A DNA stretch of 64,000 bases, taken from contig NC_008048.1 in the NCBI RefSeq assembly GCF_000013985.1, positions 1,674,001-1,738,000 on the forward strand, given 5' to 3'. The position numbers and the translations under genes were made by a program. This stretch comes from Sphingopyxis alaskensis RB2256 (GTDB taxonomy: Bacteria; Pseudomonadota; Alphaproteobacteria; Sphingomonadales; Sphingomonadaceae). The stretch's first letter is position 1. Each line of letters begins with the position of its first letter. Of this stretch, positions 28,161 through 57,220 are shown piece after piece. The notes under the pieces are model-generated. The model ran no database searches. It saw only the letters and a list, made by a program, of their open reading frames with translations, and had not been told where the DNA came from.

Positions 28161-28545
28161 CGTCATTGCGAGGAGCGTAGCGACGAAGCAATCTCCAGCG
28201 ATGCACCCTGACGCTCAGCCCGCAGTTTACATCATGACCAACCGGAAGGGCGGCGTGCTATACACCGGCGTCACGTCGAATCTTATCGGTCGTGTATGGC
28301 AACACCGGGAAAGCGGACCGGCTTTTCTGCGCGCTATCGATGCGACAAGCTCGTTTGGTTCGAAGTACATGGTGACATGCATTCAGCTATCAGCCGCGAG
28401 AAGCAGATCAAGGCGGGATCGCGTGCCAAGAAAATCGCTCTTATTGAAGCCGGCAATCCAGAGTGGCGGGACCTGTTTCCTGAACTAACCGGAGAATAGG
28501 CTGATAGCTGGAGATTGCTTCGTCGCTCTGCTCCTGGCAATGACG
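28161..28545. mobile_element. Inverted-repeat-bounded unit carrying a broken GIY-YIG gene
   Basis: Two 39-bp arms in inverted orientation, 28161-28199 and 28507-28545, match at 36 of 39 positions (both contain CGACGAAGCAATCTCCAGC in their common orientation). Each arm also has its own small stem ATTGC/GCAAT. The only content between them is the frameshifted GIY-YIG gene. It lies between the convergent ychF and merR genes. No target duplication is visible. Calling it mobile is inference. Confidence 0.55.
28201..28499 (+). pseudogene. GIY-YIG nuclease, frameshifted
   Basis: The N-terminal half (VYIMTNRKGGVLYTGVTSNL, the GIY-YIG strands with TY-G variant) is in the frame of ATG 28201, and the C-terminal half (FSARYRCDKLVWFEVHGDMH, then AISREKQIKAGSRAKKIALI) continues one frame over. 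The switch falls near 28312-28322. Together they give a normal single-domain GIY-YIG protein of about 95-100 aa, including the catalytic Glu in SREKQIK. The shift could be real or a sequencing error. It lies between inverted arms. Confidence 0.82.
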
Positions 28546-28551
28546 GATGCT

Positions 28552-28953
28552 TCAGGGCTCGAACGCCGCCATAATCGGGCACGGCCCCGTCTCGCTCGCG
28601 GCGCATTGATCGGCGAGGCGCGCGAGAGCGGCGCGCGTTGCGGTCATCTGGGCGATCTTGGCGTCGAGCGCGTCGATGCGCTGGCGCGCGAGGGCGCGGA
28701 CACGGGCGCGGTCGTCGCTCTGGTCGAGCGCGAGCAATTCGCCGATCTCGTCGAGCGTGAAGCCCGCTGCCTGCGCCGCGCGGATAAATCTAAGCCGTCT
28801 GAGATCATCATCGCCATAGCGGCGCACGCCGCCGCCCCAGCCGTCGCCGCCGCTGCGCGCGGGCGTGCCCATCAGGCCGCGGCGCTGATAATAGCGTATC
28901 GTCTCTACCCCGACATCGCCCGCGGCGGCCAGTTTGCCGATCGTCATCTGCAT
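28552..28953 (-). CDS. MerR-family metal/redox-type regulator
   Basis: A 133-aa MerR protein: winged HTH starting MTIGKLAAAGDVGVETIRYY, a coiled-coil dimerisation helix, and a C-terminal loop with two cysteines (DQCAASETGPCPIM) that match Cys117 and Cys126 of mercury MerR. The third Hg ligand, Cys82 of Tn501 MerR, has no counterpart in LLALDQSDDRARV, so a response to Hg(II) is unlikely; another metal or thiol-reactive signal is possible. ATG 28953 is chosen over ATG 28947. It is divergent from a glutaredoxin-MauE gene across a MerR-type promoter, which it probably controls. Confidence 0.87.
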   Translation of the reverse strand: MQMTIGKLAAAGDVGVETIRYYQRRGLMGTPARSGGDGWGGGVRRYGDDDLRRLRFIRAAQAAGFTLDEIGELLALDQSDDRARVRALARQRIDALDAKIAQMTATRAALARLADQCAASETGPCPIMAAFEP

Positions 28954-28956
28954 CGC

Positions 28957-28988
28957 TTGACTCCGTACCATGGTACGGATGCTATAGG
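28957..28988 (+). promoter_or_regulatory. MerR-type promoter/operator
   Basis: TTGACT (28957-28962) and TATAGG (28983-28988) are 20 bp apart, the over-long spacing typical of MerR-controlled promoters. The spacer holds a perfect 16-bp palindrome CCGTACCATGGTACGG (28963-28978), similar to the mer operator. The ATG of the divergent gene is 6 bp after the -10 box, so the message should be nearly leaderless. Confidence 0.75.
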
Positions 28989-28994
28989 AGGGGC

Positions 28995-29732
28995 ATGACA
29001 AAACAGGCAATCCTTCATCGCATGGTCATGCCGGGGCACATCTGCCCCTATGGCCTCAAAGCCAAATATCTGCTCGAGCGCCGCGGCTATAGAGTCGACG
29101 ACCGCTGGCTGACGACGCGCGAGCAGACCGATGCGTTCAAGGCGCAGCATGGCGTCCAGACGACGCCGCAGACCTTCATCGACGGGGTGCGGATCGGCGG
29201 TTATGACGATCTGCGCCGCCATTTCGGGCTGAAGGTCGCCGACCCCGATGCGGCCAGCTATACGCCCGTGATCGCGCTGTTCGCGATGACCGCGCTGATG
29301 GCGCTGGCGGCGAGCTTTGCCGCCTATGGCGATGCCTTTACGCTTCGCGCCGCCGAATGGTTCATCTCTTTCAGCATGATGGTGCTCGCGCTGCTGAAAT
29401 TGCAGGATGTGGGCAGGTTCGCGACGATGTTCCTCAATTACGACCTGCTCGCGCGCCGCTGGGTTCCCTATGCGAGCATCTATCCCTTTGCCGAGGGGCT
29501 GGCGGGCGTGTTGATGACCGCGCACGCGCTGCCCTGGCTGTCGATCCCGCTGGCGCTGTTTATCGGCGGCATCGGCGCGGTGTCGGTGTTCAAGGCGGTC
29601 TATATCGACCGGCGCGACATCAAATGCGCGTGCGTCGGCGGCAGCAGCAAGGTGCCGCTGGGCTTCGTGTCGCTGACCGAAAATCTGATGATGGTCGCGA
29701 TGGCGCTGTGGATGGCGCGCATGTGGGTGTGA
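28995..29732 (+). CDS. Glutaredoxin-MauE/DoxX fusion membrane protein
   Basis: A 245-aa protein with an N-terminal glutaredoxin-like domain (about residues 1-80; motif CPYG at 17-20, monothiol where classical glutaredoxins have CPYC; VQTTPQTFIDG is the cis-Pro segment). The rest has four to five transmembrane helices of the MauE/DoxX type, with a CxC pair (Cys211, Cys213) in KCACVGGSSKVPLG. This suggests thiol-disulphide or metal handling at the inner membrane. AGGAGGGG is only 1 nt before the ATG; with the promoter so close, initiation may be leaderless. Probably regulated by the divergent MerR. Confidence 0.82.
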   Translation: MTKQAILHRMVMPGHICPYGLKAKYLLERRGYRVDDRWLTTREQTDAFKAQHGVQTTPQTFIDGVRIGGYDDLRRHFGLKVADPDAASYTPVIALFAMTALMALAASFAAYGDAFTLRAAEWFISFSMMVLALLKLQDVGRFATMFLNYDLLARRWVPYASIYPFAEGLAGVLMTAHALPWLSIPLALFIGGIGAVSVFKAVYIDRRDIKCACVGGSSKVPLGFVSLTENLMMVAMALWMARMWV

Positions 29733-29766
29733 GGACGTCGCCGAACTGTCATTGATGAAACGCAGA

Positions 29767-29810
29767 GCTGGGCTATCGAGGGGCATCGATTCGCCCCGAC
29801 GGAGCCCAGC
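29767..29810 (+). promoter_or_regulatory. Hairpin covering the phoD ribosome-binding site
   Basis: GCTGGGCT (29767-29774) pairs with AGCCCAGC (29803-29810), and inside it GGGGC (29780-29784) pairs with GCCCC (29793-29797). The only Shine-Dalgarno-like sequence for phoD (GGAG, 29801-29804) enters the outer stem, 2 nt before ATG 29813. This could reduce translation unless the stem opens. Confidence 0.45.
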
Positions 29811-29812
29811 CC

Positions 29813-31378
29813 ATGTACAACCGCCGCCATTTCCTTGCCGGAGCGACGCTCGCCGGGCTTGCCGCGCCGGCGATCGTCCGCGCGCAGGGTATCTTGCGCG
29901 ACTTTCCCTTTCAGCTTGGCGTCGCGGCGGGCGACCCGGCGAGCGATGGTTTCGTCATCTGGACGCGCCTCGCGCCCGAGCCGATGGAGCGCCACGGCGG
30001 GATGCCGCTGACCAATGTGCCGGTCGAATGGGAGGTCGCCAGCGACGGCGGCTTTCGCGACGTGGTGGCAAAGGGCACCGCGCTGGCGCGCCCCGAGCTG
30101 GCGCACAGCGTCCATGTCGAGGTCGCGGGATTGCAGCCCGATCGCCCCTATTATTACCGTTTCACCGCCGCGGGCGAACGCAGCCTGCGCGGGCGCGCGC
30201 GGACGCTTCCCGCGCCCGGCGCGCGTGTCGATGCGCTGACGTTCGGCGTCGCGGGATGCCAGCATTTCGAGTCGGGCTTTTACGGCGCCTATCGCCACAT
30301 GGCGCGCGAGGATCTGGCCTTCGTCTATCATTATGGCGATTTCATCTATGAATATCGGCAGGATTATCTGTTCGACGACGGGCTGCCGATCCGCCCGGTG
30401 CGCCAATATGCGCAACGCGCGCTGTTCGACCTGACCGATTTCAGAACTGCCTATGCGCAGACCCTGCTCGACATCGACCAGCAGGCGGTGCGGTCGGTCC
30501 ACGCGCATCTGTCGAGCTTCGACGATCACGAGATCCGCAACAATTGGGTGTCCGACCACGACAATTGGAAATTGGGGCTCGACAAGGAAGACCCCGATGC
30601 TGCGTCGCCCGAGATTTTCATGCTCAAGAAACAGGCGGCGATGCAGGCGTGGTACGAACATATGCCCGTGCGCCGGTCGCTGTTGCCACGCGGCGGCATG
30701 GTCGCGGCGCACCGCGAGCTGCGTTATGGCGACCTGATGGCGATGCAATTGCTCGACACGCGGCAATATCGCGACGACCAGCCATGCGGCGACGGCTTCA
30801 AACCCGCCTGCCCCGACGTGTTCGCCAGGGACCGGCAGGTGCTCGGCAAGGTGCAGGAGGAATGGCTGGCGCGCAATCTGGCGCGCGGCGGCGCGACGTG
30901 GAACGCGCTGGCGCAGCAGGTGACGATGATGTCGCTCGACCGGCGGCGGCGGCCCGAAGAGAGTGAAAAGATCGTCAACCTCGACAGCTGGGCAGGTTAT
31001 GAGGTGGCGCGGACGCGGATGTTGTCGCGCTTTGCGGGGCTGAACAACAATATCGTGCTGACCGGCGACGAGCATCAGAATTTCTGCGGCGATCTGGTGC
31101 TGAAGGACAAGGTCGTCGGCGCCGAGTTTGTCGCGACATCGATCTCCAGCGGCGGGGACGGCAGCGACAAGCGCGTCGGCACCGACGAATGGCTGGCGCG
31201 CAATCCCGAACTCAAATTCGCCAACGACCAGCGCGGTTATCTGGTCTGTGAGGTCAATCGCGAGGCGTGGCAGACGCACTTCATGGTCGTCGACAAGGTC
31301 TCGACGCCGGTGAACAGCCTGTCGAAACGCGCGACGGGCGTGGTCGAACGCGGCGTTGCGGGCGTGAAGATGGCGTAA
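29813..31378 (+). CDS. phoD: Alkaline phosphatase D / phosphodiesterase PhoD
   Basis: A 521-aa Tat-exported metallophosphatase that releases phosphate from esters in the periplasm. The Tat signal is NRRHFLAGATLAGLAAPAIV. An N-terminal FN3-like domain (GVAAGDPASDGFVIWTRLAP) precedes the catalytic part, with FGVAGCQHFESGFYGAYRHM, the metal ligands in YHYGDFIYEY and FDDHEIRNNW, and LTGDEHQNFCGDL near the end. The active-site Tyr of PhoD (in DFIYEY) is kept. Length is normal. Its leader forms a hairpin over the ribosome-binding site. No Pho box was identified by eye. Confidence 0.92.
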   Translation: MYNRRHFLAGATLAGLAAPAIVRAQGILRDFPFQLGVAAGDPASDGFVIWTRLAPEPMERHGGMPLTNVPVEWEVASDGGFRDVVAKGTALARPELAHSVHVEVAGLQPDRPYYYRFTAAGERSLRGRARTLPAPGARVDALTFGVAGCQHFESGFYGAYRHMAREDLAFVYHYGDFIYEYRQDYLFDDGLPIRPVRQYAQRALFDLTDFRTAYAQTLLDIDQQAVRSVHAHLSSFDDHEIRNNWVSDHDNWKLGLDKEDPDAASPEIFMLKKQAAMQAWYEHMPVRRSLLPRGGMVAAHRELRYGDLMAMQLLDTRQYRDDQPCGDGFKPACPDVFARDRQVLGKVQEEWLARNLARGGATWNALAQQVTMMSLDRRRRPEESEKIVNLDSWAGYEVARTRMLSRFAGLNNNIVLTGDEHQNFCGDLVLKDKVVGAEFVATSISSGGDGSDKRVGTDEWLARNPELKFANDQRGYLVCEVNREAWQTHFMVVDKVSTPVNSLSKRATGVVERGVAGVKMA

Positions 31379-31393
31379 GCCGCCCGGCGGGCC

Positions 31394-33205
31394 TCATTTT
31401 CGGCCGAACAACCGTTCGACATCGCCCATCGCCAGCTTTACCCAAGTCGGGCGGCCATGGTTGCACTGGCCCGAATGCGGCGTGACCTCCATCTGGCGGA
31501 GCAGCGCGTTCATCTCCGCGACGCTCAATGTGCGCCCCGCGCGCACCGACCCATGGCACGCCATCGTCGCGGCGACCAGTTCGAGCCGTTCGTTGAGGCC
31601 GAGCGCGGCGTCATAGCCCGCCAGATCGTCGGCGATGTCGGTGACGAGCCTGTGGCAATCAATCGCCCCCAGCATCGCCGGGGTCGCGCGCACCATTACC
31701 GCACCGGGGCCGAAGCGTTCGAGCTCGACACCGAGCGCGGCGAGCCCATCCGCCGCGGCCTCCAGCCGGTCGCACGCGGGTTCGTCGAGTTCGACGACTT
31801 CGGGGATCAGCAGGCCCTGCGACGGGACCGCCTGCCCCGCCATGCCGCGCTTCAGCGTTTCGAGCACCAGCCGCTCGTGCGCCGCATGCTGGTCGACGAT
31901 GACCAGCCCGTCCTCGGCCTCGGCGACAATATAGGTTTTCGCGATCTGGCCGCGCGCGATGCCCAGCGGATGCGCCTCGGCGGCGGGCGGCGGCGTCGCC
32001 GCGACCTCGGCGCGCCCGGCGAGCGGCGCGGGCGCGGTGAAGGGCATCAGCCGGTCATAGACGCGCGCAACGTCGGCCGCGGGCAACGATACCTCGGCGG
32101 CGAAGGGATGCACCGCCGCGCCGGCGCGCCGGTCGAAGAGGAATCCCGTCGCCGGCGGCGGCGCGACGGGTTCCTGCTGCCACGCCGCGAGCGCCGCCTC
32201 GGCGGGCTTCTGCACGCTGCGAAAGCCATGTTCGTCGAGCGCGCGCCGGAGGCCCCCGACGATCATCCCGCGAATGAGCTGCGGATCGCGAAAGCGCACC
32301 TCGGTCTTTGCGGGATGGACATTCACATCGACCTCGCCCGTCGGCACGTCGAGAAACAGCGCGACGACCGGGTGCCGGTCGCGCGCGAGCAGGTCGGCAT
32401 AGGCGCCGCGCAGCGCGCCGACGAGCAGCCGGTCCTTCACCGGGCGGCCGTTGACGAACAGATATTGATGGTCGGCAATGCCGCGATTGTAGGTCGGCAG
32501 GCTGATGACGCCGCCCAGATGCACCTCGCCGCGGTCGAGGTCGACGCCGATGCTGTTCGCGGCAAGGTCGCGACTGGTGAGCGCGGCGACACGCCCGACG
32601 CGGTCCTGCCCGCCCTGCACGTCGAGCACGCGGCGGCCGTCATGCTCAAGCGTGAAGCCGACGTCGGGGCGCGCCATCGCGAGCCGCCGCACGACATCGA
32701 GGCAGGCGGCATATTCGCTGCGCGCGCTGCGCAGGAACTTGCGCCGCGCGGGGACGCGCGCGAACAGATGCTCGACGATCACGCGCGTGCCCTGGCCAAG
32801 CGCCGCCGGGCCTTCGGCGACGACAGCGCCATTGTCGACGACGCGCCGCCAGCCGTCGCCGCCCGCCGTCCGGCTTTCGAGCGTCAACCGCGCGACGCTG
32901 GCGATCGAGGGCAGCGCCTCGCCCCGGAAGCCCAGCGTCGTCACCGCCTCGATCGCGTCGTCGGGCAGCTTCGAAGTCGCATGGCGTTCGAGCGCGAGTA
33001 CCATGTCGGCGGCGGTCATGCCGCAGCCGTCATCCTCGACCTCCAGCCGCGCTATGCCGCCTTCGGCGATTCGCACCGCGATGCGAGTCGCCCCCGCGTC
33101 GATGGCATTTTCGACCAGTTCCTTGAGCGCCGCGGCGGGTCTTTCGACCACTTCACCGGCGGCGATCCGATTTACGAGCGTTTCCGGCAGGCGGCGTATT
33201 GACAT
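31394..33205 (-). CDS. mutL: DNA mismatch repair protein MutL
   Basis: Couples MutS mismatch recognition to strand excision. It begins MSIRRLPETLVNRIAAGEVV and has the GHKL ATPase motifs (ELVENAIDAGA, VEDDGCGM, TLGFRGEALPSIASV). The 603-aa protein has the C-terminal dimerisation domain; a motif like HGRPT near the end matches the PHGRP element of alphaproteobacterial MutL. An endonuclease motif DQHAAHERL is present where nicking MutLs have DQHA(x)2E(x)4E, consistent with an organism lacking MutH. It converges on phoD and diverges from mreB across 196 bp. Confidence 0.96.
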   Translation of the reverse strand: MSIRRLPETLVNRIAAGEVVERPAAALKELVENAIDAGATRIAVRIAEGGIARLEVEDDGCGMTAADMVLALERHATSKLPDDAIEAVTTLGFRGEALPSIASVARLTLESRTAGGDGWRRVVDNGAVVAEGPAALGQGTRVIVEHLFARVPARRKFLRSARSEYAACLDVVRRLAMARPDVGFTLEHDGRRVLDVQGGQDRVGRVAALTSRDLAANSIGVDLDRGEVHLGGVISLPTYNRGIADHQYLFVNGRPVKDRLLVGALRGAYADLLARDRHPVVALFLDVPTGEVDVNVHPAKTEVRFRDPQLIRGMIVGGLRRALDEHGFRSVQKPAEAALAAWQQEPVAPPPATGFLFDRRAGAAVHPFAAEVSLPAADVARVYDRLMPFTAPAPLAGRAEVAATPPPAAEAHPLGIARGQIAKTYIVAEAEDGLVIVDQHAAHERLVLETLKRGMAGQAVPSQGLLIPEVVELDEPACDRLEAAADGLAALGVELERFGPGAVMVRATPAMLGAIDCHRLVTDIADDLAGYDAALGLNERLELVAATMACHGSVRAGRTLSVAEMNALLRQMEVTPHSGQCNHGRPTWVKLAMGDVERLFGRK

Positions 33206-33398
33206 GGGGCCTGTCCTAGCGCAGTCGGACGCAAATCGCGACCCACCCGCACAGCCCGATCTTCCCGTCCAGCCCGCCGCCCTCGGCCGAGCCGGAGTCT
33301 TCCCCAGATTTGGTCCTGTTGTCGGACGGCAACGAGCAATTTATGACGACGGTGGGCGGCCCGTTCGGACGCCGCGCCGTCGATGACAGGAACTATAG

Positions 33399-34448
<1,050 letters not shown>

Positions 34449-34465
34449 TCGGGTAGCATCGCGTC

Positions 34466-35368
34466 GTGGTCCGCCCGGCACATCGACGTCCGGGGCAATC
34501 CCGAAAGGCCCAGTACAGCCTGTTCGTCGCCTATGTCATCGCGGTGACCGGCGCGGTGGCCGGGCTGTTGCTCGCGATATTGTCGGTCGCCGATCCCGTC
34601 GGCTTTGCCCAGCTGCGCATCGCAAGCCAGGAACTCGCCGCACCGATCGCGCGCGGGACGCGCTCGGTCATCGGTTCGATTTCGGGCATCGACGACAGCG
34701 TCGGCGCCTATGTCGCCGCAGGATCGCAGAACCGGCGGCTGCGCAAGGAGCTGGCCGACACGCGGCGCCAGCTGGTCGCGACCAGTTCGCTCCAGGAAGA
34801 GAATCGGCAGCTCAAGGCACTGCTCAAGCTCCAGGAAACCGACAAGACCGCGCTCGCCAACGGCTATCTGCTCACCTCGACCTCGACGAGCAGCAGGCGC
34901 ATCGCATTGCTCAGCATCGGGCGCAATCTGGGCGTCGCCGCGGGCCAGCCGGTGCGCGGCGCCGACGGGCTGATCGGCCGCGTGCTGACCGCCGGGCCGT
35001 CGGTGTCGCAGGTGCTGTTGCTCACCGACGTCGACAATATCGTCCCCGTGCGCCGCGCGCGCGACGGGCTGCCCGCGCTCGCCAGCGGTCGCGGCAACGG
35101 CTATCTTGACGTTCGCACGCTCAATATCGCGAACAATCCGTTCAAGCCCGGCGACATCCTGGTCACATCGGGCACCGGCGGCCTCTATCCGCCGAACATC
35201 CCCGTCGCGATCGTCGTGCGGCGCCAGGACGACGGCGCGCTCGCGCGTCCGCTCGCCGACCCCGGCAAGGTCGACGCCGTCGCGGTGCTGCGCCCCTATA
35301 CCCCCGACAATATCGAGGCGGCGGGTCGCCCCGGTCCGGCCGCGCTCCCTGTCGCCGCCGCGCCATGA
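34466..35368 (+). CDS. mreC: Rod-shape protein MreC
   Basis: A 300-aa bitopic protein that links MreB to the periplasmic wall machinery. A short basic N-terminus precedes a transmembrane helix (about residues 16-37, AVAGLLLAILSVADP), then a coiled coil (around residues 85-130, RKELADTRRQLVATSSLQEE) and two beta domains typical of MreC (SSRRIALLSIGRNLGVAAGQ, GDILVTSGTGGLYPPNIP). It ends in an Ala/Pro-rich tail. It starts 17 bp after mreB and overlaps mreD by 4 bp. Confidence 0.95.
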   Translation: MVRPAHRRPGQSRKAQYSLFVAYVIAVTGAVAGLLLAILSVADPVGFAQLRIASQELAAPIARGTRSVIGSISGIDDSVGAYVAAGSQNRRLRKELADTRRQLVATSSLQEENRQLKALLKLQETDKTALANGYLLTSTSTSSRRIALLSIGRNLGVAAGQPVRGADGLIGRVLTAGPSVSQVLLLTDVDNIVPVRRARDGLPALASGRGNGYLDVRTLNIANNPFKPGDILVTSGTGGLYPPNIPVAIVVRRQDDGALARPLADPGKVDAVAVLRPYTPDNIEAAGRPGPAALPVAAAP

Positions 35369-35886
35369 ACCGCAAGGGTCCGCGCCTTGGCGAACCCGCC
35401 TCGCTGTGGCGGATGCGGATCGTGCCCGTGGCGAGCGTGATGCTCGCCTCGGCGCTGCCGCTGATGCTGCCGCTGATCGCCAGTTCGCCGGTGCTGCCGC
35501 CGGTCGGCCTGCTGTTTTTCCTCTGCTGGCAATTACTGCGCACCGAAATGTGGCCGGTGTGGGTCGGGCTGCCGCTCGGCCTGTGGGACGATCTGTTCAG
35601 CGGCGCGCCGATCGGCACCGCGGCCGGACTATGGACGCTCGCGAGCATCGCCATCGCTTATTCGTCGCAGCGCATTTACTGGCGCGGTTTCTTTCACGAC
35701 TGGGTGATCGCCGGGCTGTTGATTGCGGCGATCCAGTCGCTCGCCGCGCTCATCACCCACCCCGATGCCGATACCGCGCATGTGCTCGGGCTGGTCGTGC
35801 CGCAGATCGTCATTTCGGTGTTGCTGGTGCCGCTGATCATGCGCCTGACCGGCAAGTTTGACAACTTCCGGCTGAAACGCCGATAA
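35365..35886 (+). CDS. mreD: Rod-shape protein MreD
   Basis: A 173-aa integral membrane protein with about five transmembrane helices (for example VASVMLASALPLMLPLIASS and LGLVVPQIVISVLLVPLIM). The conserved GLPLGLWDDLFSGAPIGTAA block, with its Asp pair, is the main family signature. It acts with MreC and PBP2-RodA in the elongasome. ATG overlaps the mreC stop (ATGA). The next gene, mrdA, starts 10 bp after its stop. Confidence 0.92.
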   Translation: MNRKGPRLGEPASLWRMRIVPVASVMLASALPLMLPLIASSPVLPPVGLLFFLCWQLLRTEMWPVWVGLPLGLWDDLFSGAPIGTAAGLWTLASIAIAYSSQRIYWRGFFHDWVIAGLLIAAIQSLAALITHPDADTAHVLGLVVPQIVISVLLVPLIMRLTGKFDNFRLKRR

Positions 35887-35896
35887 AACTGCGCAC

Positions 35897-38910: not shown

Positions 38911-39022
38911 CAAAAAATTTCCGCAAGGCCATTGCCAAGGATGCACCGCCATGATAGCGGGCCGCTCTCTTCACGGCGCAGGGGGATTTCCCCCGCATCG
39001 CGAAGGCCGGAAACCGGCAGAT

Positions 39023-46351: not shown

Positions 46352-46377
46352 CCGGCTTTCCTGCGGGAGAATAGGAA

Positions 46378-47750: not shown

Positions 47751-47767
47751 TTGACGTTCACGTTAAG
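47751..47767 (+). promoter_or_regulatory. Palindromic motif before the MoxR gene
   Basis: TTGACGTTCACGTTAAG, together with the preceding C, is an imperfect palindrome that matches the motif at 50685-50702 (reverse strand) in 14 of 18 positions. It overlaps the ribosome-binding region of the MoxR gene, as expected for a repressor site. It resembles operators of LiuR-type MerR regulators of acyl-CoA catabolism; that link is a memory-based guess. Confidence 0.4.
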
Positions 47768-47784
47768 GGAAAGGCTCTCCGTCC

Positions 47785-48630: not shown

Positions 48631-48634
48631 GCGC

Positions 48635-49051: not shown

Positions 49052-50439
49052 TAGGCCACCTCGACGTCGCCCCAGCGGCGGCCGCCGATGATCGCGGGCA
49101 TATAGACGTTGCGCACGGTCAGATAATTGATCCCGTCGCCTTCCTGGCGATAGACGGTCATGAAAAAGGGCGCCGTGCTGCGCTTCGCGGCCGCATCGGT
49201 CTCGTCATACAGGATGCGACCGTTGCGGCAGTGGGCGGTGTCATGTTCAAGGTCGCCGGTCGGCGCGCGCGAACAGTCGGTGATGTGCGTCGGCAGAAAG
49301 CCGTTCATGTCCCCGGCGGACGACATCTTGATCTCGGGATGTTCGGCGACGATGCGGTCGAACAGCGGCCGCCAGTTGGCGTCGGCCCAGTCGCACAAAC
49401 TGGTGCGAAAGCGTTCGGGGTTCGAGTTGGGCACGCGCACATAATCGGTGTCGAACAATTGCTCCATCGTCAGTTCGCCGCGCGCCAGCGCGCGTTCGGC
49501 AATCGCGACAAATTCGTCGCGCACCTTGGCCGCGAGCGCGACGATCGCCGAATCCTGCGGGCTGACCCCGGCGGAGATCACCGCATTGAACATGCGGTTC
49601 GACACATGCTCCATCGTCAGGATCGAATCGCGCGTGCCTGCCAGCGTCGAACTATTATCGCGCACCGATGTGACGACGCGGTCGAGCGCCTCGCGCACCT
49701 TGGCGCCGTTCGCATGGACCATCGCGCTCGATTGCGCGATGCGGTCGCTCTGGTCGTCGAGCAGCGCGACGAGGTGCGTCGCATCGTGAAGCGCGTCGGT
49801 GATCGTTTCGAACTGCGCCTCGGCGCGGCTCGACTGTTCGACCCCCGACTGGATTTCGGTGACCAGCCCGCCCGCTTCGGCGGCGAGGCTGCCGATCGAG
49901 CGGCGGATTTCGTCGGTCGCGCCGCGCGTATTCTGCGCGAGCTTCTTCACCTCGGCGGCGACGACGGCAAAGGTGCGGCCGGAATCGCCCGCACGTTCGG
50001 CCTCGATCGCGGCGTTGAGTGCGAGCATGTTGGTCGTCTTGGCGATCGATTCGATCGACTGGCTGACCTGCTGCACCTGTTCCATCACCGCGGCGAAATT
50101 GGTGACATGCGTGCCCAGCCGCGCGATCAGGTCGATCACCGAGCGGAACTCGCTGACCGCCAAATTGACCCGCTCGGCGCCGGCGTCGAGTTGCTCGCGC
50201 GCGCGCGCCGACAACAGCTTCGCTTCGTCGGTCGAATCGGCGATCTGGCGCTGGTCGGCCTCGAGGCCGACGACATATTCCTCGAGCCGGCCAAGCTCGG
50301 CGATCTGGCGGTCCATCTGGTCGGTCGCGCGCTTGATCCGCCCCGCGGCATCGCTGCACCCCACCGCCAGCTCACCGCAATCGCTCGCAACCGACTCGTC
50401 GAGGATCGGCGCCGCCGGATTGATCGGATCATATTTCAT
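49042..50439 (-). CDS. Soluble methyl-accepting chemotaxis-type protein
   Basis: A 465-aa protein without transmembrane helices. Residues about 20-300 are a coiled-coil signalling domain with the hairpin tip [20 protein letters not shown] and [20 protein letters not shown], which contact CheA/CheW. The C-terminal part ([46 protein letters not shown], ending [12 protein letters not shown]) resembles the sensor domain often placed after the signalling domain in cytoplasmic receptors; its ligand is unknown. ATG 50439 is preferred over 50484. No other che gene is in the window. Confidence 0.9.
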
Positions 50440-50684
50440 TGGCTTGCCCACATCGCAGAATGATCGCGAAGCTATGCCGAACATTGGTTAACGGGGCGTC
50501 AACGGGTGAAGGCGCGGACGTGGCGGCTTCGGGGTGACGAGCGGACGCAAGCAGACGCCCCCTTCATCACCGAATAGCCGTTTTCCGGGTAGGCGCGGCA
50601 ATGATTTATCCTGCCGGATGACGCCGTCGCCCGCCTCGACATACTTCCCCGGATTGCCGCCATTCGCCATCGTTCGGACGCTCT

Positions 50685-50702
50685 CTTTCCGTAAACGTAA
50701 AG
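50685..50702 (+). promoter_or_regulatory. Palindromic motif before the VWA gene
   Basis: CTTTCCGTAAACGTAAAG, an imperfect palindrome 38 bp before the VWA start codon. Its reverse complement matches the motif in front of the MoxR gene (47750-47767) at 14 of 18 positions, suggesting both genes respond to the same regulator. Confidence 0.4.
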
Positions 50703-50740
50703 TGATTGCGCCCGCGTCCCTGACAGGATAGTCCTGCCCC

Positions 50741-51919
50741 ATGTTTTTCGGCTTCCTCGACGAGCTTCGCGCCGCGGGCATTCCCGCCAGCCTGAAAGAG
50801 CATCTGATGCTGCTGGAGGCGCTCGACCGCGAGGTCATCGACCGTACCCCCGAACAATTCTATTACCTCTCCCGCGCCATCTATGTGAAGGACGAGGGCC
50901 TGCTCGACCGCTTCGACCAGGTGTTCAACAAGGTTTTCAAGGGGCTGCTCACCGATTACGGCCAGAACCCCGTCGACGTGCCCGAAGAATGGCTGAAAGC
51001 CGTCGCCGAGAAATATCTGACCCCCGAAGAGATGGAAGCGATCAAGTCGCTAGGCGACTGGGACGAGATCATGGAGACGCTCAAAAAGCGGCTCGAGGAA
51101 CAGCAGAAGCGCCATCAGGGCGGCAACAAATGGATCGGCACCGGCGGCACCAGCCCCTTTGGCAATTCGGGCTACAACCCCGAAGGCGTGCGGATCGGCG
51201 GCGAGAGCAGGCACAAGCGCGCGCTGAAAGTCTGGGAAAAGCGCGAGTTCCAGAACCTCGACAACACCAAGGAACTCGGCACCCGCAACATCAAGATCGC
51301 GCTGCGCCGCCTGCGCAAATTCGCGCGCGAAGGCGCCGCCGACGAGCTCGACATTCCCGGCACGATCGACGGCACCGCGCGGCAAGGCTGGCTCGACATC
51401 AGGATGCGCCCCGAACGGCGCAATGCGGTCAAGCTGTTGCTCTTTCTCGACGTCGGCGGCTCGATGGACCCGTTCATCAAGCTGTGCGAGGAATTGTTCA
51501 GCGCCGCGACGAGCGAGTTCAAGAATCTGGAGTTCTTCTACTTCCACAACTGCCCGTACGAAGGCGTGTGGAAGGACAATAAGCGCCGCTGGTCCGAACG
51601 GCATCAGATGTGGGACATCCTGCACAAATATGGCCATGATTACAAAGTTATCTTCGTCGGCGATGCGTCGATGAGCGCCTATGAGATCACCCATCCCGGC
51701 GGCAGCGTCGAACATTTCAACGAGGAATCGGGCGCGGTCTGGCTCCAGCGGATCACCCATGTCTATCCCGCTGCCGTGTGGCTCAATCCGGTGCCCGAGG
51801 CGCATTGGGGCTACACCCAGTCCGTCAAGCTCATCAAACAGCTGATGAACGACCGCATGTATCCGCTGACCCTCGCCGGCCTTGACGATGCGATGCGCGA
51901 GCTGACGCGAAAGCATTGA
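50741..51919 (+). CDS. VWA-domain (CoxE-like) protein, partner of MoxR ATPase
   Basis: A 392-aa protein of the CoxE-like VWA group. The N-terminal half is helical (MFFGFLDELRAAGIPASLKE); the VWA domain starts near residue 220, with a MIDAS-like motif LFLDVGGSMDPF (DxGGS where the canonical form is DxSxS), so metal binding may be altered. The segment DYKVIFVGDASMSAYEI follows. In related systems such a protein works with a MoxR ATPase as a chaperone; the ATPase gene is 2.1 kb upstream. ATG 50741 is preceded by GGATAG. Confidence 0.87.
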   Translation: MFFGFLDELRAAGIPASLKEHLMLLEALDREVIDRTPEQFYYLSRAIYVKDEGLLDRFDQVFNKVFKGLLTDYGQNPVDVPEEWLKAVAEKYLTPEEMEAIKSLGDWDEIMETLKKRLEEQQKRHQGGNKWIGTGGTSPFGNSGYNPEGVRIGGESRHKRALKVWEKREFQNLDNTKELGTRNIKIALRRLRKFAREGAADELDIPGTIDGTARQGWLDIRMRPERRNAVKLLLFLDVGGSMDPFIKLCEELFSAATSEFKNLEFFYFHNCPYEGVWKDNKRRWSERHQMWDILHKYGHDYKVIFVGDASMSAYEITHPGGSVEHFNEESGAVWLQRITHVYPAAVWLNPVPEAHWGYTQSVKLIKQLMNDRMYPLTLAGLDDAMRELTRKH

Positions 51920-51968
51920 GCGAGGCGGCCTGATTAGGCCGTGACGATTTCAAGCTGATCCCCTAATC

Positions 51969-52048
51969 CCGTTCGTGTCGAGCGAAGTCGAGACACCCTG
52001 AAGGCGTGCGCTGCCGATGGGTGTCTCGACTTCGCTCGACACGAACGG
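51969..52048. repeat. Paired palindromic repeat, family 1, copy C (perfect arms)
   Basis: Arms 51969-51998 and 52019-52048 are perfectly complementary over 30 bp, with a 20-bp spacer. Each arm contains GTGTC/GACAC around a 12-nt loop (GAGCGAAGTCGA). It lies between the VWA and Amj genes, both read rightwards, where it could act as a transcription barrier. Confidence 0.92.
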
Positions 52049-52073
52049 ATTTCATAAGTTCCGCTAGGCCCTC

Positions 52074-52880
52074 ATGATCGACCTCCCCCTCGTCACCATC
52101 CTGCTCCTAACCGGCTTCATCAACCTGATCGGTGCGCTTGCTTATGCCGCGCGGATCGCCGGGGTGCGGACGCGGCGGATTGCCATGTCGTTTGCGCTGT
52201 TCAACATCCTCGTGCTGTTTTCGCGCACCTCGAACAGCTTCCTTGGCCCGTTCCTCGCCAAGCGTATCGAAACGCGCCTGCATGACGGCAGCGGCGCGTC
52301 GCTGTTCGTCGACATGCAGCTGGTGCTTGCCGCGGCGAGCGTCGCGACGTTGATCGGCATTCTGCTGGTGCCGACGGGGCAGCGGATGTTTGCCGCCGCG
52401 ATCGGCTGGTACCAGACCAACCGGTCGACGACAAAGCTGGCGGTCAAGGCGGTGAGCCCGAGCGGATTGCGGACTTTGGGCCGCTCGCTGACGCTTCCCA
52501 GCCTCGCGCACCTCAAAGGCTGGAAGATGCCCAGAGGGATCAGCTGGGGCGTGCTGATCGCCAATTGCCTCGCGCAATCGCTGCTCGCCGTCGGCGTCGT
52601 CGCCTCGCTCTACGCCGGTTATCTCGCGCCCGATTTCCGTGTCACCGCGTCGCAGCTTTCCGCGCTGATCAATGGCTTTGCGACGATATTGCTGTTCGCC
52701 TTCATCGACCCGCAATTGTCGGTGATGACCGACGATGCGGTCGAGGGCAAAGTCGACGAGGCGGAGTTCCGTCGCGCGATCACCTTCATTTCGCTCAGCC
52801 GCCTTGCCGGTACGATTCTCGCGCAGGCGTTGCTGCTACCCGCCGCAATGCTGATCGCATGGGTCGCCGTCCATGTCTGA
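52074..52880 (+). CDS. amj: Amj-family lipid II flippase (DUF2837)
   Basis: A 268-aa membrane protein of the Amj family, an alternative to MurJ that flips lipid-linked peptidoglycan precursors. The N-terminal TILLLTGFINLIGALAYAAR and the highly conserved AGVRTRRIAMSFALFNILVL, then SRTSNSFLGPFLAKRIETRL, match the family; six or so hydrophobic segments follow. It overlaps the DUF817 gene by 8 bp. The assignment rests on family pattern; activity in alphaproteobacteria is not shown. Confidence 0.82.
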   Translation: MIDLPLVTILLLTGFINLIGALAYAARIAGVRTRRIAMSFALFNILVLFSRTSNSFLGPFLAKRIETRLHDGSGASLFVDMQLVLAAASVATLIGILLVPTGQRMFAAAIGWYQTNRSTTKLAVKAVSPSGLRTLGRSLTLPSLAHLKGWKMPRGISWGVLIANCLAQSLLAVGVVASLYAGYLAPDFRVTASQLSALINGFATILLFAFIDPQLSVMTDDAVEGKVDEAEFRRAITFISLSRLAGTILAQALLLPAAMLIAWVAVHV

Positions 52881-53730
52881 CGGCGCGCGCGGCCACAGCC
52901 GCTTCCACGCCGTTCGCTCGCGGCTCGAGGCGATGGCGGTCGAACCGGGACCGCGCGGCTGGTTCCTCGAGTTCCTCGTCTTCGGATTCAAACAGGGGTG
53001 GGCGTGCCTGTTCGGCGGCCTGATGCTCGCGCTGCTGCTCGGCACGCATTTCTTCTGGCCCGACGATGCGCCGCTCCACCGCTATGATGCGATCACCATC
53101 GGCGCGGTGCTGATCCAGCTCGCGATGCTTGCCTTCCGGCTTGAAACGCCGAAGGAGGCGCTGGTCATCCTGATCTTCCACATCGTCGGCACGGTGATGG
53201 AGCTGTTCAAGACCGCGGCGGGATCGTGGCAATATCCCGAGGCGAGTCTGCTTCATATCGGCGCGGTGCCGCTGTTCTCGGGTTTCATGTATGCCGCCGT
53301 CGGCAGCTATATCGCGCGCGTATGGCGCATCTTCGACTTTCGCTACACCGGCTATCCGCCCGCGTGGACGAGCTATGTGCTGGCAGCGGCGATCTATATC
53401 AATTTTTTCGCGCACCATTGGACCTATGACATCCGCTGGTTCCTCTTCGCGGCCACCGGCCTGCTCTTCTGGCGCTGTCAGGTCTGGTTCCGCCCGCTCC
53501 ACGTCCACCGGCGGATGCCCCTGCTCGTCGGCTGGGGGCTGGTCGCGCTGTTCATCTGGTTCGCCGAAAATATCGGGACGTTTGCGCGCGCCTGGACCTA
53601 TCCCAGCCAGAATGACGGCTGGCATATGGTCGGGCTGGAAAAGCTCGGCAGCTGGTATCTGCTGATGATCATCTCGTTCGTGCTGGTCAGTCTGGTGCAG
53701 CGGCCGAAAGGGCGGAGCACCGCTCCCTGA
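52873..53730 (+). CDS. DUF817 membrane protein
   Basis: A 285-aa protein with seven or eight transmembrane segments and the conserved blocks of DUF817: FGFKQGWACLFGGLMLALLL, MELFKTAAGSWQYPEASLLH and VPLFSGFMYAAVGSYIARVW. The conserved His (INFFAHHWTYD) and charged residues suggest an enzymatic or transport role, but the family has no known function. Its start overlaps the Amj stop, so it is probably cotranslated with the flippase. The end is followed by a palindromic repeat shared with the convergent peptidase gene. Confidence 0.85.
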   Translation: MSDGARGHSRFHAVRSRLEAMAVEPGPRGWFLEFLVFGFKQGWACLFGGLMLALLLGTHFFWPDDAPLHRYDAITIGAVLIQLAMLAFRLETPKEALVILIFHIVGTVMELFKTAAGSWQYPEASLLHIGAVPLFSGFMYAAVGSYIARVWRIFDFRYTGYPPAWTSYVLAAAIYINFFAHHWTYDIRWFLFAATGLLFWRCQVWFRPLHVHRRMPLLVGWGLVALFIWFAENIGTFARAWTYPSQNDGWHMVGLEKLGSWYLLMIISFVLVSLVQRPKGRSTAP

Positions 53731-53746
53731 CCATCGCCACCGCGTA

Positions 53747-53806
53747 GGCGGGGGCCGCCAGCGGTTTACTCCTCAATGCCGAGCAAGGCCGACAGCGGCC
53801 CCCGCC
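53747..53806. repeat. Inverted GC-rich repeat between convergent genes
   Basis: GGCGGGGGCCGC (53747-53758) and GCGGCCCCCGCC (53795-53806) are perfectly complementary, 36 bp apart. It lies between the stops of the DUF817 and M24 genes and could terminate both. The arms resemble yet another dispersed repeat family (GCGGGGGC core). Confidence 0.6.
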
Positions 53807-53823
53807 GTCGCGGGGGCGACGGG

Positions 53824-55068
53824 CTACGCAAACGGCCTATCGATCGACGGTGGCGGTTCGCTGAACCACTTCGGCCCCGCCTCGGTCATGTAAAAACAAT
53901 CTTCCAGCCTGATCCCGAACTCGCCCGGAATATAAATCCCCGGCTCGTTGGAAAAACACATGCCCGGCGCCAACTCCGTCGTCTCGCCGCGCACGAGGTT
54001 GACCGGCTCGTGCCCGTCGAGGCCGATGCCGTGGCCGGTGCGGTGCGACGTGCCGGGCAGCTTGTAGCCGGGGCCCCAGCCAAGGCTTTCATAATAGGCG
54101 CGCACCGCGTCGTCGACCGCGCCCGCGGGCGTGCCAAGCTTCGCCGCGGCGAAAGCGACATCCTGCCCCTTGCGCATCTGATCCCACACCTGCCGCTGGC
54201 GCGGGCTCGCCTTGCCGTATACGAAGCTGCGCGAAATGTCGGACTGATAGCCATGGACCGAGGCGCCACAGTCCATCAGCACGACCTCGCCCGGCTTCAC
54301 CGCCTGCGGCTGGCCCGACCCGTGCGGATAGGCGCTCGCCTCGCCGAGCAGGATCAGCTCGAACTCGCTCTTGCCGCCCAGCGCCACGGTCGCTGCGCGC
54401 ATGATCGCGCCGATCTCGGCAGGGGTCATCCCCGCCTCGATCCGCGGCGCGGTGTGGCGATAAGCGGCGAGCGTGATGTCGTTCGCGATCTGCATCAGCG
54501 CGATTTCGGCCGCCGATTTCATCATCCGGCACCCGCGCACGACGGGCGCGCCGTTGACGACGGTCGCGTCGGGCATCGCTTTCTCCAGCCCGTCGACCGC
54601 GAAATAACGCACCGTTTCCTCGACGCCGATCTTGCCCTTCGCCAGCCCGCGCCTGCCAAGCCAGGCCGCGACGGCGGCGAGCGGATTCTCATCCTCGTTC
54701 CACGTCAGCACTTCGGCCTCGATACCCAGGCTTTCGCGCACCGAGGGTTCCTCGAAGAAGGGCGTGACGATCGCGACCTCGCCCTCGCGCGTCAGCACTG
54801 CGGCGGTGAGCCGCTCGCTGCGCCACCATTCGACCCCGGTGAAATAGACGAGGCTCGATCCCGGCTCGATCAGCAGGGCGCCGATGTCATTTTCCTGCAT
54901 CAGCGCCGTGGCCTTGGCGATCCGCGCCATGCGTTCGGCCTTGCCGATCGGCACCGCCTTGGCGGCGAGGTTGGGCAGGCTGGCGGTGTCGGTGGCCAGT
55001 ACCGGCGCAGACAAGGTCGCCACCAGCCCGCCCAATGCCGCTGTGCCGAGAAATTGCCGCCGGTGCAT
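53824..55068 (-). CDS. Tat-exported M24 (Xaa-Pro) peptidase
   Basis: A 414-aa metallopeptidase with a Tat signal (HRRQFLGTAALGGLVATLSA). It has the creatinase-like N-terminal domain and a pita-bread catalytic domain, with the metal ligands in LMDCGASVHGYQSDISRSFV (one Asp), HRTGHGIGLDGHEPVNL (His) and FSNEPGIYIPGEFGIRLEDC (Glu, Glu). It should cleave peptides with proline at the second position, in the periplasm. ATG 55068 is chosen because the Tat motif follows; upstream ATGs add a tail. It lies downstream of a DUF1343 gene (11 bp), in one operon. Confidence 0.87.
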   Translation of the reverse strand: MHRRQFLGTAALGGLVATLSAPVLATDTASLPNLAAKAVPIGKAERMARIAKATALMQENDIGALLIEPGSSLVYFTGVEWWRSERLTAAVLTREGEVAIVTPFFEEPSVRESLGIEAEVLTWNEDENPLAAVAAWLGRRGLAKGKIGVEETVRYFAVDGLEKAMPDATVVNGAPVVRGCRMMKSAAEIALMQIANDITLAAYRHTAPRIEAGMTPAEIGAIMRAATVALGGKSEFELILLGEASAYPHGSGQPQAVKPGEVVLMDCGASVHGYQSDISRSFVYGKASPRQRQVWDQMRKGQDVAFAAAKLGTPAGAVDDAVRAYYESLGWGPGYKLPGTSHRTGHGIGLDGHEPVNLVRGETTELAPGMCFSNEPGIYIPGEFGIRLEDCFYMTEAGPKWFSEPPPSIDRPFA

Positions 55069-55079
55069 CGCCCTGCCCC

Positions 55080-56288
55080 TCAGTTGTAGATCAGCAGATC
55101 CGCGATTTCTTCTTGCCACGCCGCCTCGTCGGGCAGCGCCAGCGCGTCGAGGTCGCCGGGGCCAGCGCGCGCATCATCGACCCATTCGCGCAAACCCGGC
55201 CCGCCGTTGATCACATCAATCGCCAGTACATCGTCGGTATATTCATATTTGAAATCGAGCCCGCGCCAGATTGGATAGTCGGGATAGAGCGAGCGGATCG
55301 CCTTGAAGCCCAGCGCCTGCACGCGCCACGGGCGGAACGAGCTATGATCGTACCATGCACCCTCGGCGTGGATATGGACGCCGCTGCTCAACTGGCCGAC
55401 ATGCTTGTGAAAGGTCGGCTGGAACCAGATGTCGCGCAGCTTGCATCCGCTTAGCCATTCGGGCGCAAGGCGCTGCATCTCCGCGATCACCGCCTTGGCG
55501 TCGATGTCGGGCGCGCCGAAGAGTTCGAGCGGGCGCGTCGTGCCGCGGCCCTCGCTCAAGGTCGCTCCCTCGACCATCACCGTCCCGGCATAGGCGCGCG
55601 CCATGTTGACGTTCGCGGCATTGGGGCTGGGGTTGATCCAGACGCGCTCCATGGGCCAGCCGAAGCCGGGGCCTTCGGGCGCCCACCCTTCCATTTCGAT
55701 CACGCGGTAATCGACGTCGAGGCCGAAGTGACGGACGAACCAGTGCCCCATCTCGCCCATCGTCAACCCGTGGCGCATCACCATCGGCCCGGCGCCGACA
55801 AAACTCTCCCAGCCGGGGCGCAGGCGCGTCCCCTCGACGGGACGGCCCGCGGGATTGGGACGGTCGAGCACCCACACCGCCTTGCCATGCTGCGCCGCGG
55901 CTTCGAGCACATAGAGCAGGGTCGTCACATAGGTGTAGATGCGGCAGCCGAGATCCTGGAGATCGACCAGCATCACGTCGAATGTGTGCATCGACTGGCC
56001 GGTCGGTCGGCGCACTTCGCCATATAGGCTAAAGCATGGAACCCCATACACCGGATCGGTGAAATCGGGCGACTCCATCATATTGTCCTGAAGGTCGCCG
56101 CGCACCCCATGCTGCGGCCCGAACACCGCGCTGACCTTCACCCCGGCCGCAACGAGGGCGTCGAGGCTGTGCGTCAGGTCGGCGGTAACCGATGCCGGAT
56201 GCGCCAGCAGCGCGACGCGCCTGCCTTCGAGCGGTTTGCGGAGATCCGGGTCGGCGAGCAGGCGGTCGATACCGAAGGAGATAGTCAT
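55080..56288 (-). CDS. DUF1343 (NamZ-type exo-N-acetylmuramidase) family protein
   Basis: A 402-aa protein with the DUF1343 layout: GIDRLLADPDLRKPLEGRRV, the FGPQHGVRGDLQDNM loop, DVMLVDLQDLGCRIYTYVTT and VLDRPNPAGRPVEG. NamZ of Bacillus releases N-acetylmuramic acid from the non-reducing ends of glycan fragments. No signal peptide is visible, which would place this one in the cytoplasm. It starts at ATG 56288, overlapping the DOMON-like gene by 4 bp. Role in wall recycling is inferred from the family. Confidence 0.88.
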   Translation of the reverse strand: MTISFGIDRLLADPDLRKPLEGRRVALLAHPASVTADLTHSLDALVAAGVKVSAVFGPQHGVRGDLQDNMMESPDFTDPVYGVPCFSLYGEVRRPTGQSMHTFDVMLVDLQDLGCRIYTYVTTLLYVLEAAAQHGKAVWVLDRPNPAGRPVEGTRLRPGWESFVGAGPMVMRHGLTMGEMGHWFVRHFGLDVDYRVIEMEGWAPEGPGFGWPMERVWINPSPNAANVNMARAYAGTVMVEGATLSEGRGTTRPLELFGAPDIDAKAVIAEMQRLAPEWLSGCKLRDIWFQPTFHKHVGQLSSGVHIHAEGAWYDHSSFRPWRVQALGFKAIRSLYPDYPIWRGLDFKYEYTDDVLAIDVINGGPGLREWVDDARAGPGDLDALALPDEAAWQEEIADLLIYN

Positions 56289-56851
56289 GCCCGCCCGCGT
56301 GCCTCAAGCGTTAAGGCAAAGCAATCGGGATGATGGAAATCGGGCTGCCCCGGCGGATGCGCGAGCGCCCAATAGCTTTTGGTGCCGTCGCGTTCCTCGA
56401 TCACGGCAGAGAGGCCCAGCTTGGCCCCGACATCGGGAAAGATGCCGGGTTCGACGCGCAGCGCATAGCTCTGCTCGCTGCGCTCGGCTGCGATTTCCCA
56501 AGGCGCCAGTTGGTCGGAGCGCAGAAGCGACCGATAATCGTCGAACTGGTAACAGGCCCAGCGGCCGTCGGGGCTATAGTTGAACTCGGTATAGTCGGGC
56601 TGCCCCTCTTCGGTCAGGAACGCCTCGAAACAGGTGCTTTCCCACAATCCGTCGGTCGCGCTGTCGGCGATGACCAGCTCGCCCTCGCCATCGGGAAGCA
56701 CCAGATCGGCGATCGCCCCGTCGATCAGGAAGCGAAGTGCGAAGCCATCGTCGAACGACAGGCTGACCTCGACCGCAACCGACCGCACGGCGCGCGCGGG
56801 CGTGCCGGGGTGACAGATGAGTTGACGTCGTTCGCTGGAATGAGCCGACAT
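56285..56851 (-). CDS. DOMON-like domain protein
   Basis: A 188-aa beta-sandwich protein of the DOMON-like group: GLWESTCFEAFLTEEGQPDY and TEFNYSPDGRWACYQFDDYR are the conserved blocks. Some DOMON-type domains bind sugars or haem; no ligand residues can be named here. It begins at ATG 56851, directly after the stop of the GIY-YIG gene (no gap), and overlaps the DUF1343 gene (ATGA). Its promoter region is therefore inside or across the inserted element. Confidence 0.82.
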   Translation of the reverse strand: MSAHSSERRQLICHPGTPARAVRSVAVEVSLSFDDGFALRFLIDGAIADLVLPDGEGELVIADSATDGLWESTCFEAFLTEEGQPDYTEFNYSPDGRWACYQFDDYRSLLRSDQLAPWEIAAERSEQSYALRVEPGIFPDVGAKLGLSAVIEERDGTKSYWALAHPPGQPDFHHPDCFALTLEARGRA

Positions 56852-57169
56852 TCAGTCCCTCTCCGTTCGTCCTGAGCCTGTCGAAGGACCGTTCTTCCCT
56901 TTTGCCAAGTTCGAAATGCTGTCCCAATCGCCGCGGATCAATGCCATTTTTTTCGCGCGGCTCCACCCCTTAATCCGGCGTTCGGCTTCCAAGGCTTCGA
57001 TCCGCGTCGGAAACTCCTGACTCCACACGAGCGTCACTGGCAATTTGTCCGCCGTGAACCCTTGGATGGCGCCGGATTCGTGCTGCGCGACACGATATGG
57101 GAGATTGTCCGTGTGACCGGTGTAAAAGGCCCCTCCGCGGCAATGCAACATATAGGCCCAAAAGCTCAT
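56852..57169 (-). CDS. GIY-YIG nuclease family protein, intact
   Basis: A 105-aa single-domain GIY-YIG protein: [19 protein letters not shown] (GIY and YIG strands read as AYM and YTG), the conserved Arg in YRVAQHESG, and the catalytic Glu in [20 protein letters not shown] 57169 is chosen; a TTG at 57205 lies inside the flanking repeat. The C-terminal residues [14 protein letters not shown] are encoded by the left repeat arm. It resembles UvrC-type nucleases only in this domain. It occupies the tyrS/DOMON-like divergent gap, bounded by inverted arms. Confidence 0.87.
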
Positions 57170-57220
57170 GGGCACGGTGTAAAAGGAAGAACGGCCCTTC
57201 GACAAGCTCAGGGCGAACGG
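56863..57220. mobile_element. Inverted-repeat-bounded unit carrying an intact GIY-YIG gene
   Basis: Arms 56863-56903 and 57181-57220 form an inverted repeat of about 40 bp with three mismatches and one length difference in a C/T run (TTCGACAAGCTCAGG-type sequence). Each arm has an inner stem, TCCT/AGGA on the left and CCCT/AGGG on the right, so two of the mismatches are compensatory (T56870-A56888 versus C57195-G57213). The only cargo is the GIY-YIG gene, whose stop lies 9 bp outside the left arm. Mobility is inferred. Confidence 0.6.

Follow-up and report, generated by a model that had tools for sequence, protein, structure and literature searches.

Genes for small GIY-YIG nucleases framed by REP-like inverted repeats in Sphingopyxis alaskensis and other bacteria

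Known repeat systems and the two units of the window

In REPIN-RAYT systems, inverted pairs of repetitive extragenic palindromic sequences (REPs) have gene-free copies, and the RAYT gene is framed by its cognate REP (PMC3116915, PMC3733652). The CGTC REPs carry a CGTC tag, an 8-bp stem starting with AT and a 4-nt loop, form dimers with spacers mostly of 20-100 bp and lie mainly between genes; according to their 2013 description they apparently have no dedicated transposase (PMC3733652). We analyzed a stretch of 64,000 nt from the 3.37-Mb genome of Sphingopyxis alaskensis RB2256 (positions 1674001-1738000 of NC_008048.1, which is contig C2 of our genome G000), called the window below. It contains two genes of the GIY-YIG nuclease family, each framed by an inverted repeat, and these units, A and B, belong to a general association of such nucleases with REP-like repeats. 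The inverted pairs, the gene-free copies and the gene framed by a cognate repeat recall REPIN-RAYT, and tag, stem, loop and dimers recall the CGTC REPs. The enzyme is different. RAYT is a HuH tyrosine transposase, whereas PF01541 (GIY-YIG) was the sole Pfam family matched by three proteins tested. Likewise, the CGTC-type arms (type II) frame GIY-YIG genes here, and PMC3733652 reports no dedicated enzyme.

The units of the window are arranged as follows.

28161..28202, plus strand: left arm of unit A, type IIh, beginning CGTCATTGCGAGGAGCG, inverted repeat of 42 nt
28201..28500, plus strand: GIY-YIG gene A, frameshifted, with open reading frames 28201.. and 28296..28499
28504..28545, minus strand: right arm of unit A, inverted repeat
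56863..56898, plus strand: left arm of unit B, type Ib, beginning CCGTTCGTCCTGAGCCTGTCGAAGGACC, overlapping the 3' codons of the open reading frame
56852..57169, minus strand: GIY-YIG gene B, an open frame matching PF01541
57185..57220, minus strand: right arm of unit B, inverted repeat

The first-pass annotation of this DNA had proposed that two repeat families each bracket one GIY-YIG gene by arms of about 40 bp, and that one copy is broken and the other intact. Both statements hold: the arms are inverted and 36-42 nt long, and those of unit A (42 nt) are 90% complementary to each other. Gene A (L007) has its PF01541 domain (26.2 bits) in pieces in two different frames, and its counterpart at the same site in genome G050 is a single frame. 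In gene B (L003) the frame is open across the whole domain (51.9 bits); its start was set by eye at MSFWAYML..., and the listed frame begins at 57205 with TTG. Arm A has the CGTC tag, and neither of the two arms alone gives a stable stem.

The encoded nucleases have about 95 residues. Tyr, Tyr, Gly, Arg and His are invariant in 142 of 142 sequences and Glu is present in 140 of 142; these are residues with a catalytic role in the GIY-YIG family. Over 41 pairs, of which misalignment makes at least two invalid, the median dN/dS was 0.066, and as read from these sequences the nuclease is under purifying selection. The closest solved sequences to L001, the nuclease at the dnaG locus of this genome, were UPF0213 proteins (PDB 1zg2, E 2.4e-12; 1ywl, E 2.7e-12). 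NCBIfam gave no match at E <= 0.001 for gene B, L001 or L002, and none for gene B even at 0.1. A role in defence was not supported, no PADLOC family matching three of the proteins.

A further relative should be considered here. A 2025 paper in Nature Communications reportedly presents Ssn, a family of GIY-YIG nucleases which in Neisseria cleave single strands at the NTS repeat and affect transformation. Ssn resembles the present proteins in being a stand-alone GIY-YIG protein with a repeat in many copies; it differs in being reportedly framed as a modulator of natural transformation, and REPIN-like pairs, concerted arm evolution and empty sites are not known to be part of that work. In the plasmid collection, one record of Neisseria gonorrhoeae encodes a relative of L002 (46.7% identity), and of its 12 matches to ATTCCC-N8-GGGAAT (dRS3/CGTC-1) in 12.3 kb, 11 lie within about 720 nt of that gene. 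Thus both of these features of Ssn, a stand-alone GIY-YIG protein with intact catalytic-type residues and a gene ringed by the repeat in Neisseria, are found, and by these sequence relationships the family described here is probably the Ssn family. In the same collection, NZ_CP119142.1 and NZ_AP026896.1 (2.2 and 4.9 Mb) are filed as plasmids and resemble whole chromosomes.

No paper joining GIY-YIG and REPs by title or the start of the abstract was present among the literature matches listed, and no paper was found that pairs GIY-YIG with 'repetitive extragenic palindromic' or with 'dRS3'. The pairing of nuclease and repeat is probably already known, while its REP/REPIN reading may be new.

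Framing of nuclease genes and divergence of the arms

How general is this framing? We scored arms as the ungapped inverted match around a gene (+1/-2). A score of at least 14 was reached at 120 of 140 GIY-YIG loci versus 6 of 763 other genes taken from 80 loci (L038-L117), and at a score of 20 the numbers were 89 versus 2. The 140 loci are the 147 found minus the UvrC gene L006 and six that lay close to the end of a contig or lacked a domain match. Against random intervals of the same loci the result was similar, 96 of 117 versus 14 of 3181, a count that takes in UvrC and gene A. The bracketing, which the first-pass annotation had called a striking coincidence, exceeds chance in this genome as well: among 340 other genes predicted in the window and in 400 kb of sequence from this genome, one scores at least 14 and none at least 16. 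The search with L002, the CGTC-type protein, gave matches in 100 of 200 genomes of the phylum, and arms of at least 14 were present at 23 of the 30 loci given (one of which, L118, is L002 itself), several being plain CGTC-1 palindromes. Arms at this level were seen in Sphingomonadales, Betaproteobacteria, Bradyrhizobium, Chloroflexota, Bacteroidota (Algoriphagus) and Myxococcaceae, among others. The association of these genes with inverted repeats is real and general.

Some loci depart from the common plan. The arms of L122 and L126 (genus g17) are 66-73 nt long, exceeding nearly all others. Two tandem GIY-YIG domains in one open frame, separated by about 100-170 nt, were seen at L086:9995-10660 and L076:78-812. 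In G262, the genome of L086, repeats occur at two spacings, offset by about 90 and 42 nt, with differing stem variants.

The whole genome of S. alaskensis has seven PF01541 genes, five of which are bracketed, each by a distinct repeat sequence.

L001, G000:C2:1007 kb: dnaG-locus nuclease, arms of GCATC-type Ia
L002: arms are the textbook CGTC-1 palindrome
L003 (gene B): arms of type Ib
L004: arms are a TCCTGCG palindrome
L007 (gene A): arms of type IIh
L006: UvrC, unbracketed
L005, G000:C2:738891-739109: stand-alone and armless, adjoining an IS5-type transposase fragment

The arm of L002, CGTC-ATCCCAGC-GAAA-GCTGGGAT, fits the CGTC tag, an 8-9-bp stem beginning with AT and a loop of 4-5 nt. L005 has perhaps lost its frame of arms through insertion of the insertion sequence (IS).

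The arms follow the phylogeny of the nucleases. When the arm supertypes I (GAGC..GTCGA) and II (CGTC) were mapped onto a tree of 143 nucleases, 2 changes were needed, versus at least 22 in 200 shuffles; 110 of the 143 rows were labelled, and the tree was built on 97 columns with many forks unresolved. Ten fine arm types (108 rows) need 15 changes versus at least 46 in 100 shuffles. The agreement persists within type I (9 versus 17 shuffled) and within type II (3 versus 8). The piece of gene A clusters, on a long branch of unsure placement, with L145, a locus from a different genus whose arms are likewise TTGCGAGGAGC. The patterns for the arm types were written after the arms had been seen, so the tree test was not blind. 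Moreover, the arms are linked, co-inherited flanks, and their agreement with the tree therefore indicates a lasting unit but by itself is no proof of function.

A comparison of the arms with repeats dispersed elsewhere in the same genome goes further. The loci of L001, L046, L055, L056, L059 and L074 have both flanks in common (yqeY-nuclease-dnaG), yet their arms differ; in L038 the neighbouring genes are yqeY, followed by dnaG and rpoD. Seven genomes, G259-G265, entered the arm-match test (G266 and G267, whose places were not listed, were left out). Five of the seven (G259, G260, G261, G263, G264) have loci sharing both flanks with the dnaG locus of S. alaskensis (L001), L102 of G265 is a different locus, and L086 of G262 shares one flank only, in another arrangement. 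The own arm variant was the commonest dispersed variant in five genomes: GTCCC in G261 (22 of 38 copies) and G262 (34 of 49), GTGTC in G263 (20 of 57) and G264 (22 of 38), and GTGGT in G265 (43 of 59, among 61 of 64 places listed). GTTTC of G260 (9 of 40) was second overall and commonest within the Ia loop type, and in G259 the same variant was absent from its four dispersed copies (0 of 4). Only the observed arrangement of 630 permutations scores this well. Together these sequence comparisons strongly support a partnership of GIY-YIG nucleases with repeats.

The first-pass annotation had named arms unlike the genome copies as a result that would refute the pairing. For the dnaG-locus nuclease this was not seen; A and B come near to it in a sample of 12% of the genome. 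In the same 400-kb sample these two are the exceptions to a REPIN-RAYT feature otherwise found here, the gene framed by the REP family of its own genome.

Gene-free pairs, copy number and neighbourhoods

The window holds five compact gene-free pairs, four of type Ia and one worn pair of CGTC type, with spacers of 20-36 nt.

17449..17528, no strand: inverted gene-free type Ia pair, GCATC/GTGTC arms
19741..19822, no strand: inverted gene-free type Ia pair, GCATC/GTGTC arms
51969..52048, no strand: inverted gene-free type Ia pair, GTGTC/GTGTC arms, 100% complementary
62852..62933, no strand: inverted gene-free type Ia pair
about 53731..53822, no strand: worn inverted gene-free CGTC-type pair, of the type beginning CGTCGCCCCCGCG

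Type Ia is the arm type of the third nuclease, L001. The spacers of these inverted compact pairs measure 20-36 nt and not the 20-45 bp first stated. The four Ia pairs fold strongly through arm-to-arm pairing (z -6.7 to -11.9).

Single Ia repeats gave 121 matches in this genome at <=2 mismatches (control 0). Exact Ia homodimers were present in 26 of 60 same-genus genomes, and a reversed-pattern control gave 0. Those listed are 67-80 nt long, mostly 76-80, a nearly fixed size as in gene-free REPIN pairs. Ten close Ia pairs among 66 listed places all have the same orientation and are 46-56 nt apart. An empty orthologous site was found in at least one relative for 21 of 21 Ia, 21 of 27 CGTC and 3 of 3 Ib mappable pairs, counted in 20-kb stretches around ychF and tyrS, where orthologous pairs of several genomes are counted repeatedly. 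Other compact palindromes, of the type beginning CCCCTCCCGCTTGCGGGAGGGG and similar, occur at L260:13950-14048, L264:4578-4673, L278:15107-15202 and elsewhere. Two CGTC-type pairs, L259:2551-2626 and L267:17110-17187, appear by eye to lie inside a coding frame.

Is the number of copies independent of the gene, as the refuting case of the first-pass annotation had it? In the 60 same-genus genomes the answer was negative: Ia copies rise with GIY-YIG matches (Spearman rho 0.48, p 1.2e-4), with exceptions of 27-124 copies. The median was 56 copies where at least two matches occur (50 genomes), and the ten one-match genomes had 0, 0, 0, 0, 1, 27, 29, 47, 47 and 124 (p 0.0023); the five with 0-1 copies each have a single UvrC-sized match, and two of the five repeat-rich ones are only 76% and 87% complete. 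Where a type I match at E <= 1e-25 was present (27 genomes, in a few of which the gene is broken), the median was 61 copies, versus 44 in the others (p 0.019). All these statistics ignore shared ancestry. By hand tally over the 200 phylum genomes, an L002-type match at E <= 1e-12 was present in 12 of 25 genomes with at least 10 CGTC-pattern copies versus 27 of 175 others. The count of exact homodimers was dropped as a measure of freshness, as it overlooks the many heterodimers (GTGTC/GCATC). A type I nuclease at E <= 1e-25 was present in 8 of 14 genomes with at least 7 exact homodimers versus 19 of 46 others (hand tally, some genes broken), which is no clear difference.

The neighbours of the two units are these.

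27043..28140, plus strand: ychF (TIGR00092), upstream neighbour of unit A
57262..58488, plus strand: tyrS (TIGR00234), neighbour of unit B

A nuclease lies beside ychF at 2 of 30 loci (split in G000, one frame in G050; one of the 30 is only 147 nt) and beside tyrS at 3 of 30 (G000, G050, G009). Coordinates add a nuclease in G021 at ychF and in G001, G004 and G048 at tyrS, and a gene-free CGTC pair occupies the same tyrS gap in three relatives (L220, L223, L225). The same gene recurs at the same site, which speaks at least as much for an ancient site that lost the gene many times as for fresh insertion. Among nucleases in general, with loci fetched twice removed, both flanks are common to 541 of 660 pairs at 70-100% identity (31/32, 88/103 and 422/525), to 527 of 1326 at 60-70% and to 34 of 2147 at 50-60%. 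Phage carriage was also considered and rejected: ten Rhizobium phage records matched at 36-37% identity only. Viral contigs scanned for exact peptide words, a test confined to close relatives, yielded no match.

Explanations and their meaning

The reading that we hold to be probable, with some reserve, is that of cognate pairs, in which the nuclease cuts its own REP-like repeat and host repair spreads gene-free pairs in trans. A cognate pair would consist of a stand-alone GIY-YIG endonuclease and the REP-like repeat framing its gene. The enzyme would recognise and cut its repeat, most likely when replication exposes it as a single strand or hairpin; by analogy with what is reported of Ssn, such action on the repeat is likely. 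Host repair would then copy the repeat sequence from other copies, so that arms and dispersed copies stay alike, and would occasionally deposit a gene-free pair elsewhere. Such pairs may thus be non-autonomous repeats whose upkeep depends in trans on the nuclease, much as that of REPINs depends on RAYTs; that the nuclease spreads them is plausible, and by comparison of orthologous sites such pairs appear to come and go. The nuclease gene itself would be mostly inherited vertically and often lost, gene A being in the course of loss here.

Several observations weigh against this reading. None of the gene-free pairs of the window matches arm A or arm B, and in 400 kb (12%) of the genome arm A has one dispersed copy, arm B none and the L002 variant none. 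This sample has 11 CGTC repeats of the CATCCCGGCG type, which frame none of the nucleases of this genome and do frame nucleases of relatives (L019, L022, L029). The genome has 90 CGTC-pattern matches, and CCGGCG variants make up 19 of the 20 listed. Arms without copies and repeats without nuclease imply that nuclease and repeat do not stay matched, the two apparently disappearing at separate times. Repeats are also numerous where the only match is UvrC-sized, as with Ia in G053 (124), G023 (47) and G037 (47) and with CGTC in G091 (99; its single match is UvrC by family), G096 (183), G112 (71) and G224 (160); a single match, in most cases about as long as UvrC, is present in 17 of 18 repeat-rich genomes checked. 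A weaker arm-match test on 20-kb loci (16 loci, 31 dispersed repeats) was equalled in 198 of 5000 shuffles. Other palindrome pairs are absent in at least one relative just as often (13 of 16), so turnover is not special to the nuclease-linked repeats. Clean insertion ends between filled and empty sites were looked for and found in none of the cases compared, and one difference between near strains was 146 nt, longer than a pair. The single arms of A and B fold weakly as DNA (z 0.69, -0.07, 0.27, 0.17); the 'two hairpins' claimed for these repeats do not apply to them, and the strong folding belongs to the Ia pairs, arm to arm. We know of no strand-joining step or covalent strand transfer by GIY-YIG enzymes.

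The earlier idea of a selfish gene, if taken to mean a hopping unit, is not supported for the well-sampled nucleases, which mostly retain their genomic neighbours. An autonomous element, whose arms are terminal repeats and which transposes entire, would account for the sporadic presence at ychF and tyrS and for five differently armed units in one genome. Yet both flanks are shared by most similar nucleases, clean ends were not seen in the cases compared, and several species carry the same gene at the sporadic sites, a pattern as compatible with loss as with gain; we find transposition of this kind very improbable. Nor do we give much credit to passive framing, in which an unrelated mobilising enzyme has put REPs beside a non-essential gene, a view in keeping with CGTC REPs being reported as mainly intergenic and without a dedicated transposase (PMC3733652). 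Other genes are framed at just 6/763 and 1/340, and the arms are inverted and type-matched to the nuclease clade, which makes chance neighbourhood a most improbable cause.

A host-side function deserves more weight, although we think it unlikely as the explanation. Here the nuclease would cut single-stranded DNA at the repeat and tune uptake, recombination or the entry of phages and plasmids, the repeats spreading otherwise. This is reportedly how the Ssn/NTS work in Neisseria is understood, and it agrees with the N. gonorrhoeae family member and its 11 of 12 nearby repeats, with vertical inheritance at dnaG plus purifying selection, and with repeats that persist where no stand-alone nuclease exists. 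Alone, however, it leaves unexplained why each nuclease is flanked by inverted copies of a repeat of its own, why five different pairs coexist in one genome and why gene-free pairs turn over, and PADLOC offered no family for three of the proteins.

A broader proposal can be made tentatively, at rather less than even confidence: the GIY-YIG proteins may be the enzymes so far missing for two REP superfamilies, CGTC and CCGTTCG..GAGC..GTCGA, forming a REPIN-like system independent of RAYT, in which purely hydrolytic cutting and host repair would spread and homogenise the pairs. A self-framing cognate nuclease is a direct candidate enzyme for the CGTC REPs, which the 2013 description presents as apparently transposase-less (PMC3733652). 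Repeat spread becomes testable in easily grown sphingomonads, where many enzyme-site pairs are on offer and specificity is readable. If the single-strand cutting reported for Ssn holds here too, REP biology would be linked to DNA uptake and replication forks.

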